Positions 17,854 through 57,234 of a stretch of DNA of 64,000 nt are shown one piece after another (the first letter of the stretch is position 1; every line of letters starts with the position of its first letter). The notes beneath the pieces are model-generated. The model was not told the origin of the DNA, ran no database searches, and worked only from the letters and a program-made list of their open reading frames with translations. Made by a program: the position numbers and the translations under genes. The DNA comes from an uncultured Sphingomonas sp. (lineage in GTDB: Bacteria; Pseudomonadota; Alphaproteobacteria; Sphingomonadales; Sphingomonadaceae), in assembly GCF_937871615.1 (NCBI RefSeq), contig NZ_CALMPA010000038.1, positions 62,001 through 126,000 on the forward strand. The letters run 5' to 3'.

Positions 17854-17956
17854 GGACGTGACTTAGCAAATTCTTATCAGACAGGCATAGAACCCATTTG
17901 CGGCTTGGCGCGCCATGGGGTCATTCTTTCGACTGTTCTGTCAAAGGAGAAACACC
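17854..17956. promoter_or_regulatory. Divergent promoter region between the LysR gene and ligK
   Basis: A 103-base spacer between the regulator and the ligKUI operon. TTCT at 17871-17874 and AGAA at 17889-17892 form a small dyad that fits a LysR-type binding site. AAAGGAGA at 17944-17950 is the ribosome-binding site that decides the TTG start of ligK. Confidence 0.45.
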
Positions 17957-18623
17957 TTGTCCGGTATCGTCGTTCAGTCGATCGAGCGTGCGGAAGCATC
18001 CGTGGTTGACGGTCTGGCCCTGTGCGGGGTTGCGACCGTCCATGAGGCGCAGGGCCGCACCGGGCTGATGGCGCCGCATATGCGTCCCATTTACGCAGGC
18101 GCGCGCATCGCGGGCAGCGCGGTCACCATCTCGGCGCCCCCGGGCGATAACTGGATGGTGCATGTCGCGATCGAGCAGCTTCAGGCGGGGGACGTTCTCG
18201 TGCTGGCGCCGACCAGCCCCTGCACCGACGGCTATTTCGGCGACCTGCTGGCGACCTCGGCGCAGGCGCGGGGCTGCCGCGGCCTCATCATCGACGCCGG
18301 CGTGCGCGACGTGCGCGATCTCACCCAGATGAACTTCCCGGTCTGGTCAAAGGCGGTTCATGCGCAGGGCACGGTCAAGGCGACGCTGGGTTCAGTAAAC
18401 GTCCCGGTGGTCTGCGCCAATGCTCTGGTCAATCCCGGAGACGTCGTCATCGCCGACGACGACGGCGTGTGCGTCGTGCCGCGAGCCGATGCCGCCGCAG
18501 TATTGAAAATGGCCCAGACGCGCGAAGCCAATGAGGAGGCCAAACGTCAGCGGCTCGCCTCGGGCGAGCTCGGTCTAGACATATACGAGATGCGCGGCCG
18601 CCTTGCCGAGATGGGGCTGAAAT

Positions 18624-18631
<8 letters not shown>
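17957..18631 (+). CDS. ligK: 4-carboxy-4-hydroxy-2-oxoadipate aldolase
   Basis: A 224-residue class II aldolase of the HMG/CHA type that splits its substrate into pyruvate and oxaloacetate. The frame is open from ATG 17915, but TTG 17957 sits six bases behind AAAGGAGA and gives the usual family N-terminus ([20 protein letters not shown]). The active-site region [18 protein letters not shown] carries the expected Arg and Asp. It overlaps ligU by eight bases. Confidence 0.93.
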
Positions 18632-20559
<1,928 letters not shown>

Positions 20560-29941: not shown

Positions 29942-30322
29942 GAATTGCAGAAGATCGCGGCCATGCCCTGGCCGCCACCGGCCAACGGCGAGAGTTCTGG
30001 ATGAACGCCCTGCGGCTAGCCGGGCACTGCCAATTTATGAACCTAGCACGAGAAGTCGCATGAAAGCTTCCGCAAGCCGACCACGACCGATCTGGACTAT
30101 GCGATCCAAACGGTTGCCGAGCGGCCCGGGATTGATGCCAATGGGGCAAAGTCGCCAGCGCGCACCAGCGTAACCTTCCCAATCTTTCGCTGCTAACCCG
30201 GCCCGATTTGCGGAACCATCATCATCAATGTCGTCTCATTGTGATTGTGCACACCAAGAAGCGCAGCGAAGCACCGTCAACGTAGGATTACTCTAGTCCT
30301 GATTGCGCAGCTTCCGAAAGCC
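29942..30322. other. Gene-free stretch beyond the transposon, containing its right target duplication
   Basis: Starts with GAATT (target duplication). A plus-strand frame reading ALAATGQRREFWMNALRLAG up to a stop near 30063 looks protein-like, but it has no start on this side of the transposon and no family was recognised. Rejoined across the removed transposon it does not extend far upstream. The rest appears non-coding. Confidence 0.4.
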
Positions 30323-31195
30323 TCATACTGCGTCAATTCTTTCGCCTAACCGCACGCACAATTCGTCGAGCGATCTGACGACGAAATCTGCCTGCTCATC
30401 GGCATGTGCGCCAAAGTCGGTTGCATCTGAGAGACCAGTCGTCACACCAATGCTCGCGGCGGACGCGGCCCGCGCCATTCTCATTTCTAGCCCTGGGTCG
30501 TCACCCACGACGATCAATTTATGCGTCGCATCAGTCGGCAGACCCATCAAAGATCGGGCGCAATGCAGTGCTGCGAGCGATGGCTTGCCGAGTATGACAG
30601 GCTCGATCCCCGTCATCGCGGTGATGGCCGCATTAATCGCGAAGCTAGTTCCGATCTTGCGCCCGCCCTCCGAAGCGAAAAAGGGAACATTGGACGCCGT
30701 TGTGAGCTGCGCGCCGTCTTCGAGGTCCGCGAGCACCGCCTCCAGATCGTCGAACGTGAATGCGCGGTGATAGGCGACATAGACAGCCTCAACCGCGCAA
30801 GAAGGAGCGGCATTTTCGACGACTTCGATACCAGCGGCACGCAGCGGCACGAATGATTCGCTACGCCCCAGCGCCCTGACTTTGCGGATCCCCCGTTCAG
30901 AAAACCAATATGCAGCGGCCGTCGTCGGCGTCATCACAGCACTGTCAGGCACCTTCAACCCGGCAACGCGCAGGTTATACGCATATTGAGCCGGGGCTAT
31001 GGCAGACCCATTGGTGAAAATCCTAAAGGGCATGCCGCGCGCTGTAAGTTCTTCCAGCAGCACTTCTGCGCCCGGAAGCGGGCGATATCCAGAACTGGCG
31101 CTGTCGCCAAGTACAAGCGTGCCGTCCATGTCGAAAATGAAACCCGATGCACCAGCAAGCCGGGCAGCCAAGCCGTCAAGCGATTCACTGACCAT
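30323..31195 (-). CDS. HAD-superfamily phosphatase (NagD/4-nitrophenylphosphatase type)
   Basis: A 290-residue HAD-IIA hydrolase. Motif I FIFDMDGTLVLG (nucleophile Asp), motif II FTNGS, the Lys of motif III in ILGKPS and motif IV VVGDDPGLEMRMA are all present, so it should be active. It is the last gene of the carboxylase operon; its start overlaps the carboxyltransferase stop by one base. In the known route for hydroxyacetophenones a phosphatase removes the phosphate from the phosphorylated aroylacetate after carboxylation; this gene is placed to do that. Phosphoglycolate or another small phosphate ester is an alternative. Confidence 0.85.
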   Translation of the reverse strand: MVSESLDGLAARLAGASGFIFDMDGTLVLGDSASSGYRPLPGAEVLLEELTARGMPFRIFTNGSAIAPAQYAYNLRVAGLKVPDSAVMTPTTAAAYWFSERGIRKVRALGRSESFVPLRAAGIEVVENAAPSCAVEAVYVAYHRAFTFDDLEAVLADLEDGAQLTTASNVPFFASEGGRKIGTSFAINAAITAMTGIEPVILGKPSLAALHCARSLMGLPTDATHKLIVVGDDPGLEMRMARAASAASIGVTTGLSDATDFGAHADEQADFVVRSLDELCVRLGERIDAV

Positions 31196-32679
31196 TACAT
31201 TTTGCCCGCGGAAGCGCCAGAATGAAGTGCCAATCGTAAACCTTTTCTGTCGATTACGACATCTTTCAGGGTCGGGTTAGCAATAAGTTCTCGTAGCAAT
31301 TTCATCAACGGCGCAGCCTCCGGAGTATAGGTTGCGCGGCTGGGTCCCATCGCAAGCATTGCGTCGACCTGATCCGCCGGCATCACGGCGCGCAACAGAA
31401 ATTCCTCATCGTCCAGATGCGCGCCAAACTTGCGACGGAGATCCGAATAGTCAGGGAAATCCGGTTCACCAGCTATCTCCTTTGCCCGCGGTCGATCCAT
31501 GATGACATCCAGGATCACCGGATCGATTGGGCTCGTCGGACGCCCAAGCTTGCCCATTGCATAGCGCAAAATCTGATCCGATACCTGAACGTACCGCTGG
31601 CCGCTGACGATATTTGTTGTCGCCTGCGTCATCACCATCTGGGGAAAGGGCGTTACCATGATAGGATATCCAAGTTCAGCACGAACACGCTCCGTCTCTT
31701 CGACTACCGCGCCAAAAAGGTGCTCGAGCTTCAGTTCACTCAGTTGTCGACGAGTGGTGGTCATCACCCCTCCCGCGATCTGGTGACGCAGAAAACTGGC
31801 ATCGAAGGCTTGAGGCGTGCCCGGTTGGAGGCCTTCCGCCTTAGCCAGACGCCACCAATAATCGGTAACGTTTGCTAGAGCCCTGTCATCGATCGGCACA
31901 CTATGGCCTGCTTCCCGCAAATTCGCGACAAGCCTACCGGCCTCGGGCAACGAACTGCCATCCCCGAGGGGGCCGATACCGACATGAATGCCATCGACAG
32001 CTCCGCAATCGGCGGCCGCCAAAGCGGTAAGTGGACCATAACCGATCGTGCAGTGCGGGTGGACTTCCAGCGATTTCCCGCCGATCACCGCCTTGATCGC
32101 CGGTGCGAGTGTCTTCACGCGATCTGGAGATAGCAGGCCGCCCGGATCTTTGATGTAGAACAGGTCGATATGGGGCGATCTGGCGAGTTTCGCTGCGAAA
32201 TCTGCATAGAATGCATCATCGTGCACGGCAGAGAGGGTGAATGTCAGCGCCGCCATAACTTGCGCATCACCCTCTTCTTTGATGAGCTGAGCTGCTTCAA
32301 GAACCGCATCTATGTCATGCATGGGATCAAGAACAATGAAGCGGCCGATGCCATTATGTTGGAGCCGGCGATAGACGATTCGCATAAATTCGGGACCAGC
32401 CTGCTGCCAAGCAATGAATCGTAGGCCGGTGGTGATAAATTGAAGCGGTGTGTTGGGCATGGCAGCCCGGACACGCCTGATACGCTCCCAGGGATTGTTA
32501 CGGAAATAACGCACTGCTACGGCCATGTGGGTCGATGATGTGAAATCGATTGCTCTAAAGCCTACGCGATCCATCTGGCCGGCGACCTGGAGGATCTTTG
32601 CTGTATCGAGGCCTGTCGCGCCCCACAGCGACTGGTTGCCATCGCGCACCGAAACGTCGACGAGATTTATTTCAGCCAT
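31195..32679 (-). CDS. Carboxyltransferase subunit of a biotin-dependent carboxylase
   Basis: A 494-residue TIM-barrel carboxyltransferase related to pyruvate carboxylase and oxaloacetate decarboxylase alpha. N-terminal motif DVSVRDGNQSLWGATGLDT; lysine normally carbamylated in FYIKDPGGLLSPDRV; metal His pair in EVHPHCTIGYGP. The usual HxHDTSG motif reads HPHCTIG here, so the Asp is replaced by Cys while Thr is kept. No biotin domain is attached; biotin is carried by the separate BCCP gene. Its start overlaps the biotin carboxylase gene by eight bases. Three separate subunits and the changed motif fit a ketone carboxylase rather than ordinary pyruvate carboxylase, but this is inference. Confidence 0.87.
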   Translation of the reverse strand: MAEINLVDVSVRDGNQSLWGATGLDTAKILQVAGQMDRVGFRAIDFTSSTHMAVAVRYFRNNPWERIRRVRAAMPNTPLQFITTGLRFIAWQQAGPEFMRIVYRRLQHNGIGRFIVLDPMHDIDAVLEAAQLIKEEGDAQVMAALTFTLSAVHDDAFYADFAAKLARSPHIDLFYIKDPGGLLSPDRVKTLAPAIKAVIGGKSLEVHPHCTIGYGPLTALAAADCGAVDGIHVGIGPLGDGSSLPEAGRLVANLREAGHSVPIDDRALANVTDYWWRLAKAEGLQPGTPQAFDASFLRHQIAGGVMTTTRRQLSELKLEHLFGAVVEETERVRAELGYPIMVTPFPQMVMTQATTNIVSGQRYVQVSDQILRYAMGKLGRPTSPIDPVILDVIMDRPRAKEIAGEPDFPDYSDLRRKFGAHLDDEEFLLRAVMPADQVDAMLAMGPSRATYTPEAAPLMKLLRELIANPTLKDVVIDRKGLRLALHSGASAGKM

Positions 32680-34009
32680 TGTTCAAATTTCCGAAGAAGC
32701 GGGTGTCGACGTCGCCGGCACGGAATCGCGGATCAGCCGCGATAATGGCGTGAAGCCCAGCTGTTGAATCCATGCCTTCTAGCTCGAATACCGATAAGGC
32801 AGCAGTCAGGCGCTCAATAGCCTCGGCTCGGTCGTTGCCATGGACAATGAGCTTCCCGGCGAGGGAGTCGTAAAAGGGCGGGACGAGGCCGCCATTGAAT
32901 ATATGGGTATCGACGCGTATGCCTTCGCCCGCCGGCCACTTGGCCGATGCGGCGCGCCCGGGCGAGGGCTGGAAATCTTCGCGCCAGTTTTCGGCGTTGA
33001 TGCGCACCTCAATGGCATGACCGCGAGGCCGTATCATCTCCTGTGTCAGCGCCAATTTGCTACCGGCTGCTACTAACAGCTGTTGCTCAATCAGATCGAC
33101 GCCGGTGATCGCTTCCGTTACGGGATGCTCTACCTGGATACGCGCATTCATCTCTAGGAAATAAAAATCGAAAGTAACGGCATCTACCAGAAATTCGACC
33201 GTACCTGCTCCTCGATATGCCAGAAACTTGGCCAAATCGACCGCCGCCTGCTCGATAGCCGTGCGCTTGTCATCGGGAAGAAGGGCTGCTGGAGCTTCCT
33301 CGACCAGCTTCTGGAAGCGGCGCTGTATCGAACAGTCGCGCGTGCCCAGATGAATCGCATTCACACCATCGCCAAGCACCTGCACTTCGATATGCCGGCC
33401 GCTCGTGATAAAGCGCTCGACGTAGATGCGTGGATCCCCGAAGGAAGCCTGCGCTTCAGCCATGGCAAGATCGATCTGACCATCTAGCTGCGATTCATTA
33501 TCGACTCTTTTCATTCCCTTACCGCCGCCCCCGGACACAGCTTTGAGCAATAGCGGATAGCCCGTTTCCTGCGCGCGCCTTCGCGCTTCCTCCTTATCGC
33601 CTGCCTCACCGCCCGGGACCACCGGGAGGCCCGCTTCGATGCCGACCTTACGCGCCATCAGCTTGTCACCCATTGCCTCGAGGCTGGATGAGGAAGGGCC
33701 GACGAAAGCGATCCCCGCTTCCGCGCAAGCACGGGCAAGGCCCACATTTTCGGAGAGAAAGCCATAGCCGGGGTGCAGCGCATCCGCCCCACTTAGTTTG
33801 GTCGCGGCGATCACCTTGGCAACGTCGAGATAGCTTTGCGCCGAGGGAGCCGGACCGACCTTTACGATATGATCCGCCAGCCATGCGGCCGCGCTATTCA
33901 GATCCGCTTCGGACGCCCCAAGGACAGTCTCGATGCCCAGACGCTTTGCTGTGCGAATAACTCTAAAAGCGATTTCGCCGCGATTGGCAATGAGGAGACG
34001 CCTGATCAT
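32672..34009 (-). CDS. Biotin carboxylase subunit
   Basis: A 445-residue ATP-grasp enzyme that carboxylates biotin with ATP and bicarbonate; the length is that of AccC-type proteins. Motifs: LLIANRGEIAFRVIRTAKRL, ATP-binding loop AVSGGGGKGMKRV, EMNARIQVEHPVTEAITGVD with the catalytic region. The start is ATG 34009, overlapping the BCCP stop by four bases (ATGA); the open frame to 34087 is inside BCCP. It is an extra plasmid copy next to a specialised carboxyltransferase, not part of the fatty-acid accBC pair. Confidence 0.93.
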   Translation of the reverse strand: MIRRLLIANRGEIAFRVIRTAKRLGIETVLGASEADLNSAAAWLADHIVKVGPAPSAQSYLDVAKVIAATKLSGADALHPGYGFLSENVGLARACAEAGIAFVGPSSSSLEAMGDKLMARKVGIEAGLPVVPGGEAGDKEEARRRAQETGYPLLLKAVSGGGGKGMKRVDNESQLDGQIDLAMAEAQASFGDPRIYVERFITSGRHIEVQVLGDGVNAIHLGTRDCSIQRRFQKLVEEAPAALLPDDKRTAIEQAAVDLAKFLAYRGAGTVEFLVDAVTFDFYFLEMNARIQVEHPVTEAITGVDLIEQQLLVAAGSKLALTQEMIRPRGHAIEVRINAENWREDFQPSPGRAASAKWPAGEGIRVDTHIFNGGLVPPFYDSLAGKLIVHGNDRAEAIERLTAALSVFELEGMDSTAGLHAIIAADPRFRAGDVDTRFFGNLNNG

Positions 34010-34479
34010 TTGACGAGCATCAAAATGGCGCCGGCATCTACCATCGCGCCATTCTCGACTAAGATTTCCGCGATCTCGCCTGCACAAGCTGCGGGGACGG
34101 GATTGAAGAGCTTCATGGTCTCGATGATACCGACATTGGATTCTGCCTCGACGCTGCTGCCGACCTCAACGAAGTATGCAGTTCCAGGAGCTGGGGAGCG
34201 GTAAAAGACGCCAGGCAAAGGTGCGCGAATGGCATGCATGCCTTCGGGAACCGGGATTTCTTCCTGACCCGACTGGGCAGTCGCCCCGGCAGGCGACGCT
34301 TCGTCTTCGAGCGACCACGCCTGGCTCCAGCCTTCCCCTTGACCTTCTCCTGCATCGGCCCTGCTGACGCGAAGCCGATAGCGATCGGTTCGGATGTCCA
34401 ACCGATCATATTGACTGCCTTTCAGGATTGTGACGATTTCGTTCACATCCTCAGGACTTAGAGGCAGATCACCTTTCAC
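34006..34479 (-). CDS. Biotin carboxyl carrier protein
   Basis: A 157-residue BCCP. The biotinylated lysine lies in GIIETMKLFNPVPAAC near residue 122, followed by the expected second half of the beta barrel (GEIAEILVENGAMVDAGAIL). The N-terminal part (SPEDVNEIVTILKGSQYDRL) resembles the AccB N-terminus and is joined by a variable linker. It overlaps both neighbouring genes by four bases, so BCCP, biotin carboxylase and carboxyltransferase are translated as a unit. Confidence 0.94.
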   Translation of the reverse strand: MKGDLPLSPEDVNEIVTILKGSQYDRLDIRTDRYRLRVSRADAGEGQGEGWSQAWSLEDEASPAGATAQSGQEEIPVPEGMHAIRAPLPGVFYRSPAPGTAYFVEVGSSVEAESNVGIIETMKLFNPVPAACAGEIAEILVENGAMVDAGAILMLVK

Positions 34480-35708
34480 GCATGCACTCCGATCTTGAGA
34501 TAATCGCGGGCCGCGAGAATGATGCGGTCAGCAAACACTTCATCATTAAAGTGAGCATCCACCGCTTCGACCGGAATAGCGCTGGGAATGACTTTGCGAA
34601 GATATTCGGCGAAGGGGCCGGGCACATTGATATCGTGGAGATGCCCTTCCGGGCTGTCATGGCTGGAAAAGCCGCCCAACGGTACGAAAAAGCGTACAGG
34701 TCCTTTCGCTTCAATGACCATTTTGGCATAGTGATCGGCCAGATTTCGTAGCTCCTGCATCTGTGTGCGAACAGCAGTCAGCGCAGCATTATGCATGTGA
34801 TAGCGCGTGCCTGGGAACCGCTTCTTAGCCTCCGCTAACGGCCCGCCGATGATGAAATCGGCATTGCCGGGAGCCAAGATCGTCGGAATGCCCTTTCGCA
34901 GCGCCGCCATCGCACGCTCAGGACCACCATCTGTAAGGCCGCCGTGAAGATGGTCGACGATTTCTGTTGCCGACAAATCGAGCACTAGAGCGACATCACG
35001 TCCTTCAACGATCGCATCGAGGGTTCCGCCGCCGCCGCCAGCACAATGGAACACCATGACTTCGTTGCCGTCGTCCTGAAGCGCTTCCCTTACACGTCGA
35101 ACTGATGCTTCGGTAGTACCCAATGTGGTCATAAGAACGAGAGGTCGATCTTCCCTCTGTGCGGCAGGGTCATAACCCTTCGCCATGCCAGCAATAGCGA
35201 GCGCGGCGTTGCGATAGACATCGCGGCTGATCGAATTGATGCCTGAGACATCCGTGACGGCATTGGACATTATGATGTCCTTCGCCCCTACGAATGGTGC
35301 AGTGAACCCCGACGCCATGGTGGAGACCATCAACTTGGGAAGACCATAGGGAAAGGCCTTCATGACCGCTGTGCCAAGCGTTGTTCCCATCGACCCGCCG
35401 ATAGAGATAATGCCGGAGAAGGGTTGCGCCTCATGATGATGAAGGGCAACTCGGATAGCACCCTCGATCATCACAGCCTGGCATTTGCCCTCATGACCAA
35501 GCGCACGCACTCTCTCAATGCTCCACCCCGCCGCTTCAGCAACCTCTTCGGGTGGAATCTCGGGGCTTCCGACCGTACGCCGCACGCTTGGATCGAGATG
35601 GACTATTTCGCATCCAGCTTCTTCAAGGCAGGTTCTGAGAAAACGTCCCTCGAATTCTTTCGTGTCGTGGGTGACGATCATCAGAACAAGTGGCTTCTTT
35701 CCAACCAT
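34476..35708 (-). CDS. Tm-1-like ATP-binding protein (UPF0261)
   Basis: A protein of about 410 residues of the Tm-1/UPF0261 family. Motifs: LMIVTHDTKEFEGRFLRTCL at the start, GIISIGGSMGTTLGTAVMKA, PKLMVSTMASG, TDVSGINSISRDVYRNAALA and VFHCAGGGGGTLDAI. The family has an ATP-binding N-terminal domain. ATG 35708 sits six bases behind GGAG; a TTG at 35768 overlapping the previous stop is possible and would add 20 residues. Its stop overlaps BCCP by four bases. Within this operon it is the only candidate for an ATP-dependent activation (for instance phosphorylation) of the ketone substrate. That role is a hypothesis; UPF0261 proteins are poorly characterised. Confidence 0.83.
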   Translation of the reverse strand: MVGKKPLVLMIVTHDTKEFEGRFLRTCLEEAGCEIVHLDPSVRRTVGSPEIPPEEVAEAAGWSIERVRALGHEGKCQAVMIEGAIRVALHHHEAQPFSGIISIGGSMGTTLGTAVMKAFPYGLPKLMVSTMASGFTAPFVGAKDIIMSNAVTDVSGINSISRDVYRNAALAIAGMAKGYDPAAQREDRPLVLMTTLGTTEASVRRVREALQDDGNEVMVFHCAGGGGGTLDAIVEGRDVALVLDLSATEIVDHLHGGLTDGGPERAMAALRKGIPTILAPGNADFIIGGPLAEAKKRFPGTRYHMHNAALTAVRTQMQELRNLADHYAKMVIEAKGPVRFFVPLGGFSSHDSPEGHLHDINVPGPFAEYLRKVIPSAIPVEAVDAHFNDEVFADRIILAARDYLKIGVHA

Positions 35709-35764
35709 CCTCTTCTCCATTATAGCCCGCTGATTTGCGCACGCTGATAGACCGGCTCCATCAT

Positions 35765-36652
35765 TCAAGAATTCGGGGTACTCAGGCCGAGGATCTCACG
35801 CGCCTCTGCGGAAGATGCGATGTCAATCCCCAGTTCCGTCGCGATGCGGCGGGTTCGAGCCACGAGCTGTTCATTGGTCGCTAACTGCCCGCGGCTATAG
35901 TAAAGATTGTCCTCTAGGCCGACGCGCACGTGTCCGCCCAACAGCATAGCCTGTGTGGTCGCGGGCAGCTGCGCCGCCCCAATCGCCGACACACAGAAAA
36001 TCGACTGCGGCGGCAAAGCCGCGATCATTGCCGCTAGGATATCGTGACTATAGGGCATGGCGCCTTGAAAGCCCTTGTCTGCGCCCAGGACCATATTGAT
36101 GTAGTAGGGAGGCTTGTCATAGCCTTTCTGAATGAGTCGTGTTACATCCTGCAATATATGGGTTGGTGAAAATACCTCCCATTCAGGCTTGATGCCCCTG
36201 TCCGTCATACGCTGCACCAGCGTTTCGCAGCGGCTGGGCGGCGTGATTACGCATATTTCCCGTCCGCCATGGACGTCGACGAAGGTCATGCCATCGAAGG
36301 TCGCCATCTCCGCACCGGCTTCGCAGCCCTTTAGTCGTTCCTCGAAGCTTGATTCGAACAATCCGTCCGGCCTCTCGACAAGCATGTCACCGCTTGATCC
36401 GCCCCCGGTGGAATTGTTTATAATGATGTCGCAGCAATCGCGAATACGTCCGTTAATATCACGGTAAATATCCGCGTTACAAGTTGCGCCATCATCCGGC
36501 CTACGAGCGTGAAGCGCAGCAACTGCTGCCCCTTCCTTGTAAGATGCGTATACGGAAGCTGCAATTTCATCGGGTTGCGTGGGAAGAAGCGAACTCTGCT
36601 TCTTGGATGCCATGCCGCCCGTAGGAGCAACGGTGATAATCAGCTTGCTCAC
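35765..36652 (-). CDS. Divergent beta-keto acid cleavage enzyme (BKACE, DUF849)
   Basis: A 295-residue TIM-barrel enzyme. BKACE proteins convert a beta-keto acid plus acetyl-CoA to acetoacetate plus a new acyl-CoA, with zinc held by an HxH pair and a Glu. Here the typical HLHxRDP motif reads AALHARRPDDG: one zinc His is replaced by Ala and the Asp by Arg. The later GLEDN with the third ligand is intact (RVGLEDNLYYSRG). The N-terminal TVAPTGG and the central IINNSTGGGS are family-like. In the SYK-6 acetovanillone pathway an acetyl-CoA-dependent enzyme turns vanilloylacetate into vanilloyl-CoA, and this gene could act likewise. It overlaps the thioesterase gene by four bases. Confidence 0.85.
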   Translation of the reverse strand: MSKLIITVAPTGGMASKKQSSLLPTQPDEIAASVYASYKEGAAVAALHARRPDDGATCNADIYRDINGRIRDCCDIIINNSTGGGSSGDMLVERPDGLFESSFEERLKGCEAGAEMATFDGMTFVDVHGGREICVITPPSRCETLVQRMTDRGIKPEWEVFSPTHILQDVTRLIQKGYDKPPYYINMVLGADKGFQGAMPYSHDILAAMIAALPPQSIFCVSAIGAAQLPATTQAMLLGGHVRVGLEDNLYYSRGQLATNEQLVARTRRIATELGIDIASSAEAREILGLSTPNS

Positions 36653-37092
36653 GACGAAACACCTTCATGGATGGAGGGAGTGGAAAGCGCGGACACGATT
36701 TCAGGGGGCAATGGAATGCCTCGCAATCTTCCGCTCTCCTGGTCGATGGCAGACCAAACGCGCTTTTCGAATGCCTCGATCGCCAGATCCTCACCTCTGA
36801 AGACGCGATGTGACACCTCAAAACTACTACGGCCAATCTTGGGAACGGAGGTATGCACCTGAATTTCTTCACCAAACCGACTGGGAATATAAAAACGGGC
36901 TCCGGTATCCACCATCGGAAAACCAACAATCCCGTACCTCTCAATCATAGCGCGCTTGTCAATACCGGTCACCATGCGAAAAATCGCGGCGGTGCAGCTG
37001 TCAAACATTCGGAAATACTGGGGATAATAAACTATCCCGGCGGGATCGCAATCACCCCAACTTATCTCAACGGAGATTTTATTTACAAACAT
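36649..37092 (-). CDS. Hotdog-fold acyl-CoA thioesterase (4-hydroxybenzoyl-CoA thioesterase-like)
   Basis: A 147-residue hotdog thioesterase. The catalytic motif WGDCDPAGIVYYPQYFRMFD at residues 13-32 is the signature of the 4-hydroxybenzoyl-CoA thioesterase group, with the nucleophile or base Asp in DPAG. ATG 37092 is taken as the start; a GTG at 37107 would add five residues. Its end overlaps the BKACE gene by four bases, so the two are coupled. Hydrolysis of a benzoyl-type CoA ester to the free acid is the natural role next to BKACE and with pobA in the same region. Confidence 0.88.
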   Translation of the reverse strand: MFVNKISVEISWGDCDPAGIVYYPQYFRMFDSCTAAIFRMVTGIDKRAMIERYGIVGFPMVDTGARFYIPSRFGEEIQVHTSVPKIGRSSFEVSHRVFRGEDLAIEAFEKRVWSAIDQESGRLRGIPLPPEIVSALSTPSIHEGVSS

Positions 37093-37140
37093 GAGGGCAT
37101 GTCTCACGCTATGCCGGACGCCGGACGTGTCGGCGCCGAA

Positions 37141-37824
37141 TTAAACCAGTTCGAATTGAGATATTAGACCGTTTTGCAGGCCTAGTCTCATCAGACGCCC
37201 GCCTGCATCTAGCAACAGTTCATCGTCCCTCGCGTCCTTCAACGTCGCCGTGGCCACGCCAGCCTCTCTAAGCGAGCCAATCGCGTCTTCATGCGAACTG
37301 GAACGCGTCCCACCGGTGCTGCCCATTTGCAATTGAGCGGCAAGATACTGCCTTGCATTTGCGCCATGCTCATGGGCCAGCGCTGCTTGGAAAGCCTGAA
37401 ACGCGGCTCGCTGAGTAACGTGAGCGCCCAAGCGCGGTAATTTACTCGTTCCATAGTTGACAGGCCAAGTCGCTGCTTTCAGGCGACGAATCCGATTACC
37501 TTCACACTCATATATGATAAAGAACTTCACCGTCATCATGTCGCCTGGCGCCAACGGTCCAAACGGAAAGTCTGGCCGCGACTTTAGTGCATGAAAATCC
37601 ATGTCGATCTCACGAAAATGACCCGACGGGCCATCAAAGCCTGTGATAGGCCGAAATATCTCACGGATACCATTTCGAACGAAATGGAACAAATTCAACC
37701 ATTCATCGCGGCCCGTCACCGTTTGACCGCCATCCTCCCAGACCACATCCTCCGTAAACCATTGATCCACGAGATTAACGTAATCCCCGGAATTGAATGC
37801 ATCTATATATGTGGTGAAATCCAT
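37141..37824 (-). CDS. SnoaL/NTF2-like protein, function unknown
   Basis: A 227-residue protein. The first 130 residues have the pattern of an NTF2-like cone fold (TYIDAFNSGDYVNLVDQWFT, EDVVWEDGGQTVTGRDEWLN, HFREIDMDFHALK). The C-terminal 90 residues are Ala/Gln-rich and helical and do not belong to the fold. ATG 37824 is used; TTG at 37839 is an alternative. Proteins of this fold may be small isomerases, hydratases or binding proteins. It lies between the aldehyde dehydrogenase and thioesterase genes in one operon, so a step in the same degradation is likely but not identified. Confidence 0.65.
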   Translation of the reverse strand: MDFTTYIDAFNSGDYVNLVDQWFTEDVVWEDGGQTVTGRDEWLNLFHFVRNGIREIFRPITGFDGPSGHFREIDMDFHALKSRPDFPFGPLAPGDMMTVKFFIIYECEGNRIRRLKAATWPVNYGTSKLPRLGAHVTQRAAFQAFQAALAHEHGANARQYLAAQLQMGSTGGTRSSSHEDAIGSLREAGVATATLKDARDDELLLDAGGRLMRLGLQNGLISQFELV

Positions 37825-37863
37825 TGTTTTAATTCCCAACTGGTAAGTTTGATTAGACTTGGT

Positions 37864-39261
37864 TTAAATCGGAAACTGTCCTGGCAGGGTTTCAACTGTA
37901 ATCCAGCGAGTTTCAGTAAAACTATCGATCCCCTGTTTGCCTCCGAACCGGCCATAGCCAGACGCTCCGGTACCCCCGAAAGGCATCTGCGGCTCGTCAT
38001 GAACCGTGGGCCCATTGATATGACAGATGCCTGATTTGATCCTCTTCGCGAGCATCAACCCCTTTGCGATATCGCGTGTGAAGATAGCCGCAGAAAGCCC
38101 GTATTGGCTGTCATTGGCAATCTCCACCGCTTGGTCGGCATCGCGAGCACGGATTAAGGCCACGACCGGGCCGAAGCTCTCGTCGCGATAGAGATCCATT
38201 GCGGGAGTTACGCCATCAAGCACGATGGCAGACATCACCACATTGTCCCCTTTTCCGCCCGTCAAGATCTTGGCACCTTTCTCGATCGCATCGTCAACCA
38301 ACTCGTTGACGCGGTTCACAGTGCTCATGTCGACCACCGAACCCAGCGGCGCCTTCCCTTCACGCGGGTCGCTCGCGACAAGGGTCGCCGTCTTTGATGC
38401 AAACTTTTCCGCAAAAGCCTCTGCGACTGCGTCAACCACGATAATTCGCTCGGTGCTCATGCAAATTTGGCCTTGGTTCATAAACGCACCAAAAGCTGCC
38501 GCCTTGACGGCTTCGTCGAGATCGGCATCTTCCAGAATCAGGAGCGGCGCCTTACCGCCAAGCTCGAGCAGGCAAGGTTTAAGATTTTCCGCCGCCCGAC
38601 GAGCGATAATCCGACCGACATGGGTGCTGCCAGTAAAGTTGATACGCTTGATCTCTGGCGCGTCGATCAGCGCGCCGACTACTTCTGCAGCATCTTCTGG
38701 CGCATTAGTCACGATATTTACTACCGACTCGGGAAACCCCGCGTCAGCGAAGGCCTCGACGATAAGCGCGTGGGTATTTGGACATAATTCACTAGCTTTG
38801 AGGATCACCGAGTTCCCACAGGCAAGCGGCACCGCGATAGCACGAACGCCGAGAATAATCGGTGCGTTCCAAGGTGCTATCCCAAGCACGACCCCGACAG
38901 GTTCCTTCATCACAAGGGCCAGACAGCCGGGCTTGTCCGAAGGAATTACTTCACCGCATATTTGAGTAGTCAGCGCTGCCGCTTCTCGGACTATACCGGC
39001 AGCAAGTTCCAGATTGAACAATGCCCAACCACGTGTGGACCCAGTCTCTTGCATCATCGAAGCAACAAACTGGTCCTTGCGGGCCTCCAAGGCCGATGCC
39101 GCCCGCAGCAGAACCATGCGACGAGTGTTGGGACCCAGCGCTGCCCAGACCTTTTGACCTTCGGCAGCCCTATTGCCTAAGTTCGGAATGTCAGCGGCCT
39201 GCATAGCCTCAGCCGAGGATGCTACTTCGCCAGTGAGTGGATTGATTCGTTCAAACCGCAT
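37864..39261 (-). CDS. Aldehyde dehydrogenase (aromatic aldehyde, vanillin dehydrogenase-like)
   Basis: A 465-residue NAD(P)-dependent aldehyde dehydrogenase. Catalytic Glu in LLELGGKAPLL, nucleophile Cys in MNQGQICMSTERII, cofactor loop INFTGSTHVGRIIA, and the C-terminal PFGGTGASGYGRFGG are present. Sequence style resembles salicylaldehyde/vanillin dehydrogenases. It lies in the same operon as the lignostilbene dioxygenase, whose product is a hydroxybenzaldehyde, so oxidation of 4-hydroxybenzaldehyde or vanillin to the acid is the likely job. The exact substrate cannot be read from the sequence. Confidence 0.88.
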   Translation of the reverse strand: MRFERINPLTGEVASSAEAMQAADIPNLGNRAAEGQKVWAALGPNTRRMVLLRAASALEARKDQFVASMMQETGSTRGWALFNLELAAGIVREAAALTTQICGEVIPSDKPGCLALVMKEPVGVVLGIAPWNAPIILGVRAIAVPLACGNSVILKASELCPNTHALIVEAFADAGFPESVVNIVTNAPEDAAEVVGALIDAPEIKRINFTGSTHVGRIIARRAAENLKPCLLELGGKAPLLILEDADLDEAVKAAAFGAFMNQGQICMSTERIIVVDAVAEAFAEKFASKTATLVASDPREGKAPLGSVVDMSTVNRVNELVDDAIEKGAKILTGGKGDNVVMSAIVLDGVTPAMDLYRDESFGPVVALIRARDADQAVEIANDSQYGLSAAIFTRDIAKGLMLAKRIKSGICHINGPTVHDEPQMPFGGTGASGYGRFGGKQGIDSFTETRWITVETLPGQFPI

Positions 39262-39321
39262 GTTTCCACCTCTTTAGTGGTAAATAGAAGATCAATGGAG
39301 AAAGCAGGCCGTCCCTACGAA

Positions 39322-39687
39322 TCAGAAATTAAATCTAGCTCGAATTCCGTAAGTCCGAGGAGCTTCAAGTGTAACTACAGGAAGACCGACGATTGGTTGT
39401 ACAAACGAGGTCGCCTTTAACGTCTCGTTCTCGATATTATCGATATACACAGCAACAGAGTAGCGGTTTTCAGGGCCGCGCCATGTCAAACTCGCATTCG
39501 ACATCATATATCCTTGCTGAGCGAGATCGTCCAGCGGGTAGGCGTCGTTATAGGCTGTCAGTCGTTCGTTTTCGGGACCAAAGAACCATTCGTTCCCGAC
39601 GATCGCGGAAAATTCCGTGAGTGCTGCGCGCATTGACGCCTCAGTCACGCCGTTAGGCAATATCATGGTCATACTCCCGGAACCCAA
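39322..39687 (-). pseudogene. C-terminal remnant of a TonB-dependent receptor
   Basis: About 115 codons with typical last strands of an outer-membrane receptor: LTAYNDAYPLDDLAQQGYMM, then SVAVYIDNIENETLKATSFV and a final ...YGIRARFNF ending in Phe. A complete receptor has 700 or more residues, so plug and most of the barrel are missing. The fragment begins directly at the end of the dioxygenase gene, overlapping it by 19 bases in another frame, which marks a deletion junction. An aromatic-compound uptake receptor was probably once part of the operon. Confidence 0.85.
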
Positions 39688-41108
39688 GTCGTGTGAAAGG
39701 CGCTCCTGAGACGAATCGGCAATCGGGCCGTTGCAAGCGGCCCCTCGGAGATGGCGCGCGCGTCGAAGATCAGCAGATCGGAACGGTTTTGGTCATGTCG
39801 ATCGGCGATATTGATATACCAACCTTCATCTTCGCCAGGCCCGCGCGGGATGAACGCGCCCTCCTGGAAGCTAGTCTCGTCAGTCCCGTGATAGGTTTGG
39901 ACTTCGCCGGTCGTCAGATCGATTTTGCCGATCATGTTAGCGCCCATGTAGGTAGGGCCGGCCATCAATATCCGCCTCTCCGGATCCACCATTGAGATAT
40001 AGGCGTAGCGATAATCCCGACCGACGCATCGCGGATCGATGAGCGGCAGCTCACCGCCATATGGGGCCAAACTCTTCGATGAGAATCCTCCATCGACGGC
40101 GTTCGACGTCATGTCGAAAGACCAACGCGTGGGATAGGGGACGCCATCCTGAGGATCCGCGGCCGATCCTGCGATGTCGCCGATGTAGGGGAAGCCATTC
40201 CGCTTGGAGATCATCATATCGAGATGGACTATTGTGCCTTCGTTAAAGCCGTTGATGACGTGAAAGCCACACGACGTAGGCACTTTGAACCATCGGATAT
40301 CGGTCGTACTGCCGGCTCGCGGCATAATGCCAACCCAACTAGGCAAACTCCCGTCCCACTTCCAATGATCCCCACCTGCCTTCAAGCGCTCGGGATCCAT
40401 TGTCGTCGGAAAGATTGGAAAGATCACGTAATCAGTCGTGATCGCGAAGTCATGGACCATCCCGACATATGGGGGATCGAACCACTCTTCTTTAACAAGA
40501 TTCCCACTTTTGTCCTCGATCAGGAAGCACATTGGCGACGAACCATCACCTTCACATTCATAGCTAAACAGAAGAAGCTCACCCGTAACGGGGTCTATCT
40601 TCGGGTGGGCTGTAACTGTTTTACTTTTAAGCTGCCCATTCCAAGTGAAATCGCCCAAGGTGGCTAGAGTGTCCGGATCGACAGCCATCGGCACATGGTC
40701 CTCCTTGAGCACCAGGAGACGGCCAGCGTGCCAAATTGGCGCGGTATTTGCGGTCCCTCGGCTTTTCCCGGCGACTTCAGGTTTATCAGTCCACGGATTG
40801 CGATATTTCCCATAGAGAGAACGTCGGGCAGCCCGCTCAGCTTTCCATCTTTCGGTCTGAATATAGCGCATCTTGAAATCGACATGGCCGTTCTCGAAGT
40901 TAAACATCGAGATCATCCCGTCCCCATTCACGTAAATGTCGTCTCCCAGATATGGCGGATATTGGGGATCCGGGCCGGAGCGATACCATCTACCATTAAG
41001 ATCCGGGGGAACATCACCCTCCACCTCAAGATCATATATATCGCATTCAATTCTACTTGGAGTGTTGTATCCACTGAAAGAGAGACCGTCAGGAAATAGC
41101 TTAGTCAT
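39669..41108 (-). CDS. Lignostilbene-alpha,beta-dioxygenase-type carotenoid cleavage oxygenase
   Basis: A 479-residue seven-bladed propeller enzyme that splits the central double bond of hydroxylated stilbenes to two aromatic aldehydes, using Fe(II) and O2. Four iron His residues are in place: VTAHPKIDP, GMVHDFAIT, CGFHVINGFN and the C-terminal SAFHTTWVPG. N-terminal DLNGRWYRSGPDPQYPP is typical of the family. It is the first gene of the operon running to the HAD phosphatase. In SYK-6 lsdA also lies near the lig genes. Carotenoid-type substrates are less likely from context. Confidence 0.9.
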   Translation of the reverse strand: MTKLFPDGLSFSGYNTPSRIECDIYDLEVEGDVPPDLNGRWYRSGPDPQYPPYLGDDIYVNGDGMISMFNFENGHVDFKMRYIQTERWKAERAARRSLYGKYRNPWTDKPEVAGKSRGTANTAPIWHAGRLLVLKEDHVPMAVDPDTLATLGDFTWNGQLKSKTVTAHPKIDPVTGELLLFSYECEGDGSSPMCFLIEDKSGNLVKEEWFDPPYVGMVHDFAITTDYVIFPIFPTTMDPERLKAGGDHWKWDGSLPSWVGIMPRAGSTTDIRWFKVPTSCGFHVINGFNEGTIVHLDMMISKRNGFPYIGDIAGSAADPQDGVPYPTRWSFDMTSNAVDGGFSSKSLAPYGGELPLIDPRCVGRDYRYAYISMVDPERRILMAGPTYMGANMIGKIDLTTGEVQTYHGTDETSFQEGAFIPRGPGEDEGWYINIADRHDQNRSDLLIFDARAISEGPLATARLPIRLRSAFHTTWVPGV

Positions 41109-41750
41109 GAACGCATGCCTTTTTAAGTGTTACGCGCCTGCGCTTTGCTGCAGGAACATATTCAGCGAATAAAACATTATGAAGTTTGACTAGCGGCGCG
41201 AATAATCGTGTATCGGTTGGGATTGAGGACTCGCCTATATTCGATGGCCGCCCGTCGCTCCCACTATGAGGCACCTTCAGACGAGATCGGCACGAGTCCG
41301 CCATTTCACGACGCGTACGCGTAGCGTTGCCGCGTTCGCATCGCGGCGCTCCTATCACCATACATCCTCTCCTAACTTCCCAAACCGCTGCGTCCCTTCA
41401 TCGGGATCATGCAAGCTATGAGCGATGTTGTCGGCGCATACATTGCAGGCGAGATTTACGATGTCAAGTGGAGAAGCGAGGCGGGTAGCCGTAGTTCGTG
41501 AGACCTCAATCGAACGCGCCACCTTCGGCTTCCAGATTGGGGAAGGGCCTGAAATAAAGTTTCGCGCAGTTCAGCGGCCAACTAAGTCGTGATCTGTAAT
41601 TTGCGATCGCTTGGCGGTTGTCCCTTGAGGGTCTCAAGGATCTGCCCGCACTCGCCGACCCTGAGGCCGGTGGTGCTGTATCGGGTCTCACAAGGCCGGA
41701 CGTTGCATTGACTTGAAGCGAGCTCGGCGGCCCATCCCTCGACCTTCGCA
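41109..41750. other. Gene-free region upstream of the dioxygenase operon
   Basis: No coding frame with a start site and family features on either strand; the minus-strand frame 41101-41361 is Arg-rich and looks like a shadow. The part next to 41108 should hold the operon promoter, but no clear -35/-10 pair was identified. The part beyond 41500 merges into insertion-sequence debris. Confidence 0.4.
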
Positions 41751-44522: not shown

Positions 44523-45704
<1,182 letters not shown>

Positions 45705-47715: not shown

Positions 47716-47831
47716 GCGCCGAGGGATAGCGCGCCCACTTTCCAATGTATAGGGTGTTGATAACGATCCATTATCAACACTATGCGTCCGGGCATGCTTT
47801 ACCGAGAGGTCGTTTCAGTTCACTATTGGCT

Positions 47832-48854
47832 ATGGAAAACCGGCCCTCGCCCATCCGATACGGTCCCGACTATACCCCAAAAATGGTCACGGCGATAGCG
47901 GCCGCGACAGCCGCGATTGCCCGTCTCGATGCCCGGATTATCGTCAGTCCGGTGGCCAAAGCATGGTCCACGCGCGCCGCGTGGAGCGGCTATGCGCGGG
48001 CCTTGCAATTGCAGTCGGCCGAGGTTGAGGAAATTGACGTATTTTCGTGGGGCTGCGACCTCAAAATCCCTGGTCGTCCTCCCCTCCCCAGCCATCTCGA
48101 CCTGTTCGACCGCTTCGCGGAATGGCGAGCAGCGTTGCAGGATGACGATCGGCTTCGCTGGCGCGACCGCCTGCCGACCGCGATCGGAGATCCAGCAACG
48201 GCGACCGAGCACGCCCCCCTTGTCCGCGCGCTCGATACCGTCCGCCAGCTCGCGCGGATCGACCACAGCATCATGGCCTGGCTGTCCTTGCCATTCGCGT
48301 TGCGCGACCGCGGCCTTGTGGCTAGCCCCCTCCCCTGCCTTGCCGGCGGCGCCAAGGCGTTCCGGCTGAAGCCCCGGCCCAATGACGATGATTGGCTGGC
48401 CGTGCTGCGCGCCCTCGAAAGCGCGGCGACGATCGCGCTGCAGCGGCTGCACAGCCTCGAGCGGCACTATCGCGACGCTCAGCGCGCGATCGCCGCCGAA
48501 TACCGCCCTGGCGCCCTCCCTGCGCTGCTGGCGCTGATCCAATATCGCCCTTTGCTCTCCCCGCAATCGGCTGCAGAGTTACTTTGCATGAGTATCGCCG
48601 GAGCGAGCAAGCTGTTCGAGCGCGCCGCGACGGCCGGTCTGCTCGTGGAAATTACGCAGCGGCGAAGCTGGCGCCAATTTCTGACGCCGGACCTGGCCGC
48701 AGATTTTGGCTATGTGCGGCCAAAGCGGGGACGGCCTGCTAAAGAGCCCCCTCCCCTTCCCGTCGATCGCGATCTGGCTGCGGTATTCGATGCGTTCGAC
48801 ACCGAAATGGCTGCATTAGACAATCTCCTCGCTAGGAAATGCGAGCTCAATTAA
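47832..48854 (+). CDS. RHE_PE00001-family HTH protein
   Basis: A 340-residue protein of the type annotated as RHE_PE00001 family in alphaproteobacterial plasmids. It starts at ATG 47832 (MENRPSPIRYGPDYTPKMVT). Early region with ARIIVSPVAKAWSTRAAWSG; C-terminal winged HTH LLSPQSAAELLCMSIAGASK followed by LTPDLAADFGYVRPKRGRPA. These proteins are predicted DNA-binding and have no established function. It is divergent from the tyrosine recombinase, and such pairs recur on plasmids, which suggests a shared job. Confidence 0.72.
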   Translation: MENRPSPIRYGPDYTPKMVTAIAAATAAIARLDARIIVSPVAKAWSTRAAWSGYARALQLQSAEVEEIDVFSWGCDLKIPGRPPLPSHLDLFDRFAEWRAALQDDDRLRWRDRLPTAIGDPATATEHAPLVRALDTVRQLARIDHSIMAWLSLPFALRDRGLVASPLPCLAGGAKAFRLKPRPNDDDWLAVLRALESAATIALQRLHSLERHYRDAQRAIAAEYRPGALPALLALIQYRPLLSPQSAAELLCMSIAGASKLFERAATAGLLVEITQRRSWRQFLTPDLAADFGYVRPKRGRPAKEPPPLPVDRDLAAVFDAFDTEMAALDNLLARKCELN

Positions 48855-49227
48855 TTCCAAAGCGCGCTTCTCCCTTCCAGGAAATATGCGTTTTATCAGC
48901 CACTTATATTTGTGCAGCGTTATGTGCCGCATATCGTGCGGCGTCTTGTAGCGCAATGTATAACGCGCTGTGTGCTGCGCGGGCGTATTCGCATGTGCGT
49001 GCGACTGCGCGGCTACGCGCGCGCTCTAACGCGCCGCTACAGTGTGATGGTGATGTGCATGCAGCATCGCGTGGCCCAGCACGTTCGAGTGCGGACGCGC
49101 GGCATACTTGCACAGCGCCTATACCCGCGTTATCACATCCGCATACGGTTGGTGCTGCGCATCCTTACGCACGGTCGGCCTGTGCCGCGCAGGTGAACGC
49201 GCGGCCTTATATTAGAGGAGCTAACGA
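48855..49227. other. Gene-free region with dense GCGC/TGCGC elements upstream of parA (candidate centromere or origin element)
   Basis: No supported gene in 373 bases, although short Cys/Arg-rich frames are open. The stretch from about 48920 to 49190 contains many short elements such as GTGCTGCGC, TGCGCGG, ACGCGCG and GTGCGT at irregular spacing, in both orientations. GAGGAGCTAACG precedes the parA start at 49228. Its position directly upstream of a small parA suggests the partition site; no regular iteron could be defined. Confidence 0.4.
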
Positions 49228-49914
49228 ATGCCGGTCATCACCATCGCGCAGAGCAAAGGAGGCGCGGGTAAAACCACACTCGCTCTCGCGCTCGCGTCTG
49301 AATTCGAGGCACTAGGCGGCTCCGTATTCATGCTCGATGCTGACCGCCAGAACAGCCTGCTAAACTGGCACCGCGATCGCCGCGAAGAGGGAAGGGGAGG
49401 TGACTCCCTCATCACTGTGGAGGATGCCTCCCAGATCCGCGACGCCGAGATCGGCGCAGCTATCAAAAGGGCGAGGGAAAGTGCACAACTGGTGATCGTG
49501 GATTCTGAAGGGACGTCCAACTTCAAGACCGCATATGCCGCGATGGACTCTGACTTTGTCGTGATACCAACCCGCTCCTCGCGCCTCGACCTCGAAAGAA
49601 CCGTGGAAACCAGCGAAATGCTGCAGAAGATGGGTGGCGGGGTGCCATACCGAGTCCTCATTACCCAAACCGGACAGGTCGCGCGCTCGCGCGCCGAGTG
49701 GGAAATCGATGCCCAAATCAGCAGTGCATTGCCGATATTCAAGGAGCAAATGCACACACTCGATGCATTCCGCGCCATGTCGAATTTCCGCATGACCCTC
49801 GCGGAAGTGGAGCAAGCTGGTCTCGCCAAAACGGAGAAAGCCCGGCGCATAGCCCAGAGCATCCTCGCCGACGTCCTCGGCGAAATTCAGAACAAGGAAG
49901 CATCCAATGGCTGA
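49228..49914 (+). CDS. parA: ParA-type partition ATPase
   Basis: A 228-residue ParA/MinD-family ATPase of the short type Ib kind, without N-terminal HTH. Deviant Walker A AQSKGGAGKTTLALALA near the N-terminus, Walker A' FMLDADRQNSLLNW and Walker B-like LVIVDSEGTSN are present. GAGGAGC upstream gives a good ribosome-binding site. It overlaps the next gene by eight bases, as in two-gene partition operons. Confidence 0.93.
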   Translation: MPVITIAQSKGGAGKTTLALALASEFEALGGSVFMLDADRQNSLLNWHRDRREEGRGGDSLITVEDASQIRDAEIGAAIKRARESAQLVIVDSEGTSNFKTAYAAMDSDFVVIPTRSSRLDLERTVETSEMLQKMGGGVPYRVLITQTGQVARSRAEWEIDAQISSALPIFKEQMHTLDAFRAMSNFRMTLAEVEQAGLAKTEKARRIAQSILADVLGEIQNKEASNG

Positions 49915-50296
49915 ACCCAAACCCGCAACTCCGGCCATGGGTGACATCATCGGCAAAACCCGGCAGCGCCTCGAAACGAATGACGATCCAACCGCTCGCC
50001 TCAAAAGCCTGATCGCGTCTACACCGCCGGCGGGTGCCGCGGTCGACCCATCCCCAACCCGGGAACCGCTCCGGCCAACGCCCCCGGCGAATTATTTTCC
50101 GCAGGTCCAAGCCGAAACCGCCGCAATTCCCAAGCGCAAACCAATGCGCGGGCCAGCGCGGACCAAACATATCACTATGCGCCTGTCGCAGCCCGAGCGT
50201 GACCGACTAGTCCTCTGGTGCGAGGCCAGAAACCTCAGCCTACCCGACGGCATCATCGCCTTGCTCGATCTCGCCGAAGGGGAGGGGCCGGTCTGA
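49907..50296 (+). CDS. Small partition partner protein (RHH-like C-terminus)
   Basis: A 129-residue protein coupled to parA by an eight-base overlap. The first 80 residues are Pro/Ala-rich and probably disordered. The C-terminal 45 residues (RTKHITMRLSQPERDRLVLW, then LSLPDGIIALLDLAE) have the strand-helix-helix pattern of ribbon-helix-helix proteins. In type Ib systems such small proteins bind the centromere and stimulate ParA through a flexible N-terminal arm. No sequence family is recognised; the role is inferred from position and shape. Confidence 0.65.
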   Translation: MAEPKPATPAMGDIIGKTRQRLETNDDPTARLKSLIASTPPAGAAVDPSPTREPLRPTPPANYFPQVQAETAAIPKRKPMRGPARTKHITMRLSQPERDRLVLWCEARNLSLPDGIIALLDLAEGEGPV

Positions 50297-50308
50297 CGCC
50301 CAGGATGC

Positions 50309-50333: not shown

Positions 50334-50336
50334 GGC

Positions 50337-57232: not shown

Positions 57233-57234
57233 GT

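Follow-up and report, generated by a model that had tools for sequence, protein, structure and literature searches.

Which ketone is served by a compact biotin-dependent carboxylase operon on contig NZ_CALMPA010000038.1 of an uncultured Sphingomonas sp. (RefSeq assembly GCF_937871615.1)? The operon is tightly packed on the minus strand at 30323–37839 of the window, the 64,000-nucleotide stretch analysed here (contig positions 62,001 to 126,000), which belongs to a contig of 141,960 bases in a genome of 3.99 Mb and 71 contigs. An earlier note on this DNA had described seven overlapping genes—for a hotdog thioesterase, a BKACE enzyme, a Tm-1-like (UPF0261) protein, a biotin carboxyl carrier protein (BCCP), a biotin carboxylase, a free-standing carboxyltransferase and a HAD phosphatase—and had read them as a plasmid-borne funnel for lignin-type ketones. 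All seven were found by open reading frame (ORF) analysis and Pfam searches, on the minus strand and with overlapping ends. We conclude, with good though not complete confidence, that this operon, part of a mobile plasmid module, serves the lower pathway of bisphenol A (BPA) breakdown as its 4-hydroxyacetophenone branch.

The company that the operon keeps on plasmids points to BPA. Window positions 30300–41200 are 100% identical to plasmid pBAR1 of Sphingomonas bisphenolicum AO1 and 99.9% identical to Sphingobium A3 (plasmid pSYA3-2) and YC-JY1. They form part of a mobile module shared with pBAR1 (24892–48652; blastn identities of 99.996% and 100% for two pieces that run across the start of the record), comprising Tn3-family genes, the operon, pobA and an integrase region, and most of this block also occurs in the BPA degraders A3 and YC-JY1. 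The plasmid location that had been proposed is supported. Plasmid pBAR1 additionally carries a cytochrome P450 and ferredoxin gene pair; we take this P450 for BisdB, since it alone among P450s is common to the four BPA hosts (98.3–100% identity), the records themselves saying only ‘cytochrome P450’. Among 72,556 plasmid records, the P450 (at least 98%), the dioxygenase encoded upstream of the operon (at least 99%) and a SnoaL-like protein (at least 99%) occur in the same four; 29 further records match the dioxygenase, all under 60%. In Pseudomonas putida YC-AE1, genes for the dioxygenase, an aldehyde dehydrogenase and the SnoaL-like protein adjoin the P450 and ferredoxin genes between transposons, and the plasmid has its own UPF0261–carboxylase–HAD operon ~55 kb from this P450 cassette. 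Because the module is common to plasmids of BPA degraders that carry the BPA P450, the ketone is most likely 4-hydroxyacetophenone derived from BPA, and a funnel for lignin-type ketones is not supported as the main role.

The module is also 100% identical over 19.5 kb in Aurantiacibacter xanthus (locus L087) and over 18.8 kb in a genome from another genus (G382, locus L043), which points to very recent transfer. It has moved between replicons, since the window backbone differs from that of pBAR1: positions 1–5219 are plasmid backbone 88% identical to a Rhizorhabdus wittichii plasmid, and positions ~47750–64000 are 86% identical to R. wittichii and Sphingopyxis granuli plasmids. A Novosphingobium humi plasmid, whose record is without annotation, was also matched.

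BPA is a mass-produced endocrine disruptor, for which, in the portions of the literature available to us, only the first enzyme, BisdAB (P450 plus ferredoxin), has a proven gene, the later enzymes or genetic mechanism being termed unknown. The available text on YC-JY1 lists 1,2-bis(4-hydroxyphenyl)-2-propanol, the alpha-methylstilbene, 4-hydroxybenzaldehyde and 4-hydroxyacetophenone as BPA metabolites and gives the last two as formed by way of this stilbene and as each serving as sole carbon source (PMC7278973). In excerpts of a study of a BPA-degrading community, enzymes beyond the first step are termed unknown, expression of hapA/hapB does not track BPA and a gene for 4-hydroxybenzaldehyde is seemingly absent from the community’s Sphingomonas genomes (PMC6366072). 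Each of those gaps has a candidate in the module, which offers one for every later BPA step to 4-hydroxybenzoate on a plasmid segment present in several genera.

Read in the direction of transcription, from 41108 down to 30323 on the minus strand, the genes encode a dioxygenase, a short ORF, an aldehyde dehydrogenase, a SnoaL-like protein, a 4HBT thioesterase, BKACE, UPF0261, BCCP, biotin carboxylase, carboxyltransferase and HAD. The earlier gene list was therefore right in its seven members; it omitted the SnoaL-like protein, and the co-directional run extends through the aldehyde dehydrogenase and dioxygenase. From the thioesterase onward neighbouring frames overlap slightly, to an extent that depends on the choice of start codon, several starts being those annotated in pBAR1, whose sequence is identical here.

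We infer all of the substrates named for the window proteins. By the proposed route, the SnoaL/NTF2-like protein (37141–37824 or 37839, minus strand like all genes of this run; SnoaL_2 1.7e-6) would dehydrate 1,2-bis(4-hydroxyphenyl)-2-propanol to the stilbene, a role proposed by elimination only. The lignostilbene-type dioxygenase (39669–41108; RPE65 3.8e-124) would cleave 4,4'-dihydroxy-alpha-methylstilbene to 4-hydroxybenzaldehyde and 4-hydroxyacetophenone; it matches the Protein Data Bank (PDB) structure of lignostilbene dioxygenase isozyme I (E 2.8e-127) and misses NCBIfam equivalog cut-offs (LigStilDioxAlpha, 550 bits against 800; another, 533 against 650), lignostilbene dioxygenase still being the closest family. 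The aldehyde dehydrogenase (37864–39261; Aldedh 3.5e-142), also in the YC-AE1 P450 cassette, would oxidise 4-hydroxybenzaldehyde to 4-hydroxybenzoate.

On the ketone side, the UPF0261 protein (34476–35708; UPF0261 6.6e-55, C-terminal domain 4.9e-60), a putative MarK-like ketone-phenol kinase, would phosphorylate the phenol of 4-hydroxyacetophenone. Its methyl ketone would then be carboxylated by a complex of BCCP (34006–34479; Biotin_lipoyl 6.8e-18), biotin carboxylase (32672–34009, start as in pBAR1; Biotin_carb_N 1.5e-39, CPSase_L_D2 5.6e-67, Biotin_carb_C 3e-31) and the free-standing carboxyltransferase (31195–32679; PYC_OADA 4.8e-19, HMGL-like 4.3e-8). The HAD-IIA phosphatase (30323–31195; Hydrolase_6 1e-16), in an HpeD/AcvF-like role, would take off the phosphate to give 4-hydroxybenzoylacetate, which the BKACE-family enzyme (35765–36652; BKACE 3.7e-78) would convert with acetyl-CoA to 4-hydroxybenzoyl-CoA and acetoacetate. 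The hotdog thioesterase (36649–37107; 4HBT_2 1.4e-12) would finally hydrolyse 4-hydroxybenzoyl-CoA to 4-hydroxybenzoate for PobA. The translation of the BCCP contains ETMKL, which we take to be a biotinylation-type motif; the biotin carboxylase scores 576 bits against the NCBIfam AccC-type model, under its cut-off of 686.

The gene for that last enzyme, pobA (4-hydroxybenzoate 3-monooxygenase; 44523–45704, plus strand; FAD_binding_3), is so named in the identical pBAR1 and lies within the shared module. Of the two end products suggested earlier, 4-hydroxybenzoate is one that the module’s own pobA could use, and a route to vanillate is not supported as the main role; of the links drawn to stilbene cleavage, pobA and lig genes, the first two hold within the module, and the protocatechuate 4,5-cleavage genes (LigB, LigA, LysR, amidohydrolase and others; 13473–20556) lie outside it.

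Is the carboxylase an ordinary pyruvate carboxylase or oxaloacetate decarboxylase? The segment LLRGQN of pyruvate carboxylase subunit beta, oxaloacetate decarboxylase and transcarboxylase 5S is ITTGLR in the window carboxyltransferase. We take the Arg of LLRGQN to bind pyruvate; at this position 84 of 86 carboxyltransferases have Thr84, with Arg only in two outgroup rows. Asp13, Lys177, His207 and His209, presumably the metal site, are kept in 84 to 86 of the 86 rows (one row being gapped at 13). Since the pyruvate-type Arg is replaced by Thr84, pyruvate is an unlikely substrate, and on this ground both ordinary enzymes were ruled out. Together with two further points, that the carboxyltransferase groups with kinase-linked carboxylases in the same tree and that the HAD gene is retained, this replacement favours the Hpe/Acv-type chemistry that the earlier note had envisaged.

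That chemistry is known from the Hpe pathway of Rhodococcus rhodochrous GD02 (hpeHICBADEF), as described in the available text of PMC9618137. The window operon resembles Hpe in its separate carboxyltransferase, biotin carboxylase and BCCP, its HAD phosphatase, its phosphorylated-ketone logic and its overlapping genes, and differs in having UPF0261 in place of the two-component kinase HpeHI/AcvAB and in its linkage to bisphenol genes. It thus has the traits common to Hpe and Acv: a three-part biotin carboxylase with a free-standing carboxyltransferase of the same group—a group defined by loci with a two-component kinase, not by the GD02 sequences—and an adjacent HAD phosphatase. With the Acv/Vce system of Sphingobium lignivorans SYK-6 it shares homologous carboxylase and phosphatase; unlike that system, it has UPF0261 instead of the two-component kinase and includes the final-step genes. 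Genome G144, which we take to be SYK-6, has counterparts of the carboxyltransferase (56%), biotin carboxylase (60%, to the copy in a second operon described below) and, elsewhere in the genome, BKACE (71%). A single-component kinase for aromatic ketones, MarK of Novosphingobium aromaticivorans (JBC 2025, 110606), is described in the introduction of another paper (PMC13101465), and the window UPF0261 protein is proposed to act likewise; around five Novosphingobium operons (L095–L099), a same-strand comparison out to 8.5 kb (only 2.9 kb downstream in L098) revealed neither BKACE nor thioesterase genes, nor any for stilbenes or bisphenol, unlike in the window operon. BPA plasmids with bisdAB have the module at 99.9–100% in AO1 pBAR1, YC-JY1 and A3 and the upper cassette in P. 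putida YC-AE1, whereas the window genome has no close BisdB. The type of pathway is thus already known (Hpe/Acv/MarK); its wiring and role in the window operon look new.

If the ketone is phosphorylated before it is carboxylated, which protein does this? The earlier suggestion of the Tm-1-like protein as activating enzyme is supported by kinase exclusivity among loci and by the genome itself: PPDK_N, which we take to be the ATP-grasp half of HpeHI-type kinases, gave no match in the window’s genome in a search that was positive in 13 of 14 control genomes, and the only two UPF0261 matches there fall one in each of two ketone operons. The family set comprised 68 places with a carboxyltransferase match, two of them in the window’s own genome; neighbours (same strand, within 8 kb) were compared at 40 family loci, of which 38 came from the 46 places in other genomes with at least 46% identity and two from the 20 with less, with the P. 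putida plasmid locus as a 41st. Where carboxyltransferase identity was at least 60% (15 loci), UPF0261 lay upstream in 13 and a two-component kinase in none, L045 and L053 being cut by a contig end. At 46–56% identity (24 loci), both kinase parts were present in all 24 and UPF0261 in none; two distant loci (~36%) had neither kinase type and also lacked the HAD gene. Seven kinase proteins from L057, L060, L070 and L075 all had PPDK_N or PEP-utilizers in Pfam. Thirteen of the 15 near-group loci show the order UPF0261–BCCP–biotin carboxylase–carboxyltransferase–HAD, the remaining two being cut by contig ends, and this recurrence rules out a chance neighbourhood.

At 80 named loci (the best 80 of 588; same strand, within 8.5 kb), UPF0261 and HpeH-like proteins were counted from 45% identity and HpeI-like proteins from 40%, leaving weaker kinase matches in L102, L107 and L166 uncounted. 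UPF0261 alone was found in 18, the two-component kinase alone in 52, both in none and neither in 10, eight of which were short of flank; for the 54 among them that had 6 kb or more of sequence on each side, the corresponding figures were 13, 39, 0 and 2. A HAD gene stood near the carboxyltransferase in 74 of these best 80. On a tree of 86 carboxyltransferases, built by a quick method and retaining open forks, kinase state needs at least six changes, and the well-supported branches alone force five for either group. Because one kinase has repeatedly been exchanged for the other ahead of a carboxylase and phosphatase that are retained, UPF0261 probably does the kinase’s job. This exchange is the strongest evidence here for its role as ketone-activating kinase, is in line with what is reported of MarK (PMC13101465), and argues by comparison that UPF0261, the family to which the tomato virus-resistance protein Tm-1 belongs, can be a small-molecule kinase. 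The best solved relative of the window protein is PDB 9mpy (E 9e-173; 66.5% identity, as determined with the L043 and L087 proteins, both 100% identical to that of the window), which is 88–91% identical to the UPF0261 proteins of the five Novosphingobium operons; we infer that 9mpy is MarK.

Several observations were made in passing at these loci. Neither kinase type was counted at two full-flank loci: L141, from Maritimibacter, and L166, from the Chloroflexi, where each type matched only weakly. Sixteen of the 24 two-component-kinase loci (L061, L063, L064, L067, L069–L080) have no biotin carboxylase between BCCP and carboxyltransferase, so their carboxylases may borrow one from elsewhere. 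A biotin synthase gene lies near the carboxylase in seven of the 40 family loci (L062, L066, L067, L068, L073, L074, L077) and in five of the 80 named loci (best 80 of 588; L143, L149, L150, L151, L155), which suggests that biotin is co-supplied. Distant relatives of the SnoaL-like protein occur near two-component-kinase operons (38–41% identity in five of the best 80 of 588 named loci, 35–43% in six family loci), so this protein could have another role; a comparison of it with solved structures found nothing at E of 1 or below.

The last steps depend on BKACE, which was found in 12 of 397 family genomes, nine at 69% identity or more and three (G028, G220, G303) at 57–61%. A carboxyltransferase of this group occurs in 46 of the 397; all nine genomes with BKACE at 69% or above are among these 46, and the other three lack it. 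In five of the nine (G008, G034, G076, G144, G391) BKACE and carboxylase are on separate contigs or far apart, which argues that the link is more than synteny; the nine are non-independent, three coming from one genus. The window’s genome has only two BKACE matches, those of its two operons. AxHARRPDD is common to all 12 family BKACE loci compared; since the three outlying enzymes share it, the motif marks a BKACE subfamily rather than a pathway. Adjacency of BKACE and carboxylase is rare, occurring in three of the 40 family loci (L043, L051, L056). Near the carboxylase, 18 of the best 80 of 588 named loci have an acetoacetate-CoA-ligase-like gene and eight an amidohydrolase gene; the P. putida YC-AE1 operon has both, reminiscent of the Hpe ligase and hydrolase.

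A number of findings weigh against a BPA role. No close relative of BisdB was found in the window’s own genome (best match 32%), in A. xanthus (26%) or in G382 (33%), the latter two having the identical operon, so that, to judge from the assemblies, BPA itself may be beyond the reach of these strains: either bisdAB was lost or unassembled in them, or the module serves other stilbenes or ketones. Across the family, BisdB was found in none of 397 genomes, a set without a positive control genome. In BKACE, Ala46 stands at the first His of HxH, a position that is His in the five solved relatives aligned and that we take to be a zinc ligand; going by the sequence, the reaction of the window enzyme may differ. 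Among the best 80 of 588 named loci, BKACE adjoins the carboxylase in one, the identical A. xanthus copy (L087). The nearest solved structures are pyruvate carboxylase subunit beta for the carboxyltransferase and 3-keto-5-aminohexanoate cleavage enzyme for BKACE. A rival reading is that the operon serves lignin-type ketones (acetovanillone, plant 4-hydroxyacetophenone), rides with genes for cleavage of natural stilbenes and was recruited by BPA degraders. Related operons without stilbene genes do occur across Sphingomonadaceae and beyond, three genomes hold the operon without a close BisdB, and lig genes lie on the same contig. Yet on plasmids this dioxygenase and SnoaL-like protein (at least 99%) are found only together with the BPA P450, and three of the four plasmid hosts are published BPA degraders, the fourth, AO1, being named as one in the available part of PMC7278973; we consider this reading unlikely.

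Another possibility is that a Baeyer–Villiger monooxygenase and an esterase take 4-hydroxyacetophenone to hydroquinone and that the operon does something else. The accessible text on P. putida YC-AE1 includes a 4-hydroxyacetophenone hydrolase among genes up on BPA (PMC9733184), and its account leans to hydroquinone; it was the only paper returned from open-licence literature on bisphenol A with bisdB, lignostilbene or carotenoid oxygenase, and no paper joining bisphenol A, 4-hydroxyacetophenone and biotin carboxylase was found in that literature. Excerpts of the community study give both Sphingomonas genomes genes (of hapA/hapB type) annotated for 4-hydroxyacetophenone to 4-hydroxyphenyl acetate and describe isolate Sph-2 as slow on 4-hydroxyacetophenone (PMC6366072). 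The hydrolase, the annotations and the slow isolate all fit a Baeyer–Villiger route, and there are three FMO-like matches elsewhere in the window’s genome. With hapA/hapB out of step with the BPA pattern in the same excerpts (PMC6366072), and with carboxylation genes and pobA in the shared module, we regard such a division of labour as very unlikely. Nor is it at all likely that UPF0261 is an accessory factor, with an unlinked kinase phosphorylating the ketone or the ketone carboxylated free: UPF0261 proteins elsewhere often pair with a TIM-barrel partner and are themselves termed uncharacterised in the part of PMC5028733 available, but here they repeatedly substitute for the two-component kinase and never stand beside it, the HAD phosphatase is retained, a search of the genome for PPDK_N proteins was negative, and MarK is reported, in the text to hand, as a single-component kinase for such ketones (PMC13101465).

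We therefore retain the reading of the operon as the 4-hydroxyacetophenone branch of BPA breakdown. Gene content, BPA-plasmid identity, co-occurrence and kinase exchange come from the sequences analysed here; the BPA metabolites, BisdAB and the kinase–carboxylase–phosphatase chemistry of Hpe come from the work of others, in the parts available (PMC7278973, PMC9618137). A wider proposition is close to an even call, leaning slightly to the negative: that the module would supply all but the P450 for converting BPA into 4-hydroxybenzoate (a new dehydratase of SnoaL fold acting on 1,2-bis(4-hydroxyphenyl)-2-propanol, a dioxygenase that cleaves the alpha-methylstilbene, and carboxylation of 4-hydroxyacetophenone by way of a UPF0261 kinase and a BKACE subfamily whose metal site is altered), that two unrelated kinases have been exchanged across bacteria before one carboxylase, and that a second operon on the contig encodes a sister route in which a CYP199-type O-demethylase takes the first step on 4-methoxyphenyl ketones.

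Within the module, the short ORF between the dioxygenase and aldehyde dehydrogenase genes (39322–39687, minus strand) gave no Pfam match and is possibly a C-terminal scrap of a TonB-dependent receptor, its translation having been judged by eye; positions 39273–39636 are absent from the P. putida copy and 39503–39615 from the A3 copy. No relative was found in viral contigs.

The second operon, a diverged paralogue, shares the contig with the first at a distance of ~60 kb (C38 ~28.4–36.3 kb, L003) and lies outside the window. It encodes a TonB receptor, a P450, UPF0261, BCCP, biotin carboxylase, carboxyltransferase, HAD, thioesterase, BKACE, a short-chain dehydrogenase/reductase (SDR) and biotin synthase, together with a zinc alcohol dehydrogenase (whose plasmid relatives are annotated class III), a small 2Fe-2S-type ORF (15239–15556, by eye), an esterase and a ferredoxin-reductase-type protein. 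Identity to the window operon is 84% for BKACE, 73% for the carboxyltransferase, 71% for biotin carboxylase, 61% for UPF0261, 55% each for HAD and the thioesterase and 46% for BCCP. The P450 is closest to CYP199 structures, and CYP199A4 is a para-methoxybenzoate O-demethylase; because this CYP199-like P450 is accompanied by genes of formaldehyde-oxidation type, the operon (L003:1929–18106, C38 ~26–42 kb) is likely a route for 4-methoxyphenyl ketones. Among the 40 family loci, only L056 has the same layout, P450 included. Its carboxyltransferase gene is apparently frameshifted near the start (two frames, L003 ~8634–8720), and two matches of equal lengths and near-equal scores suggest that A. 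xanthus has the same P450.

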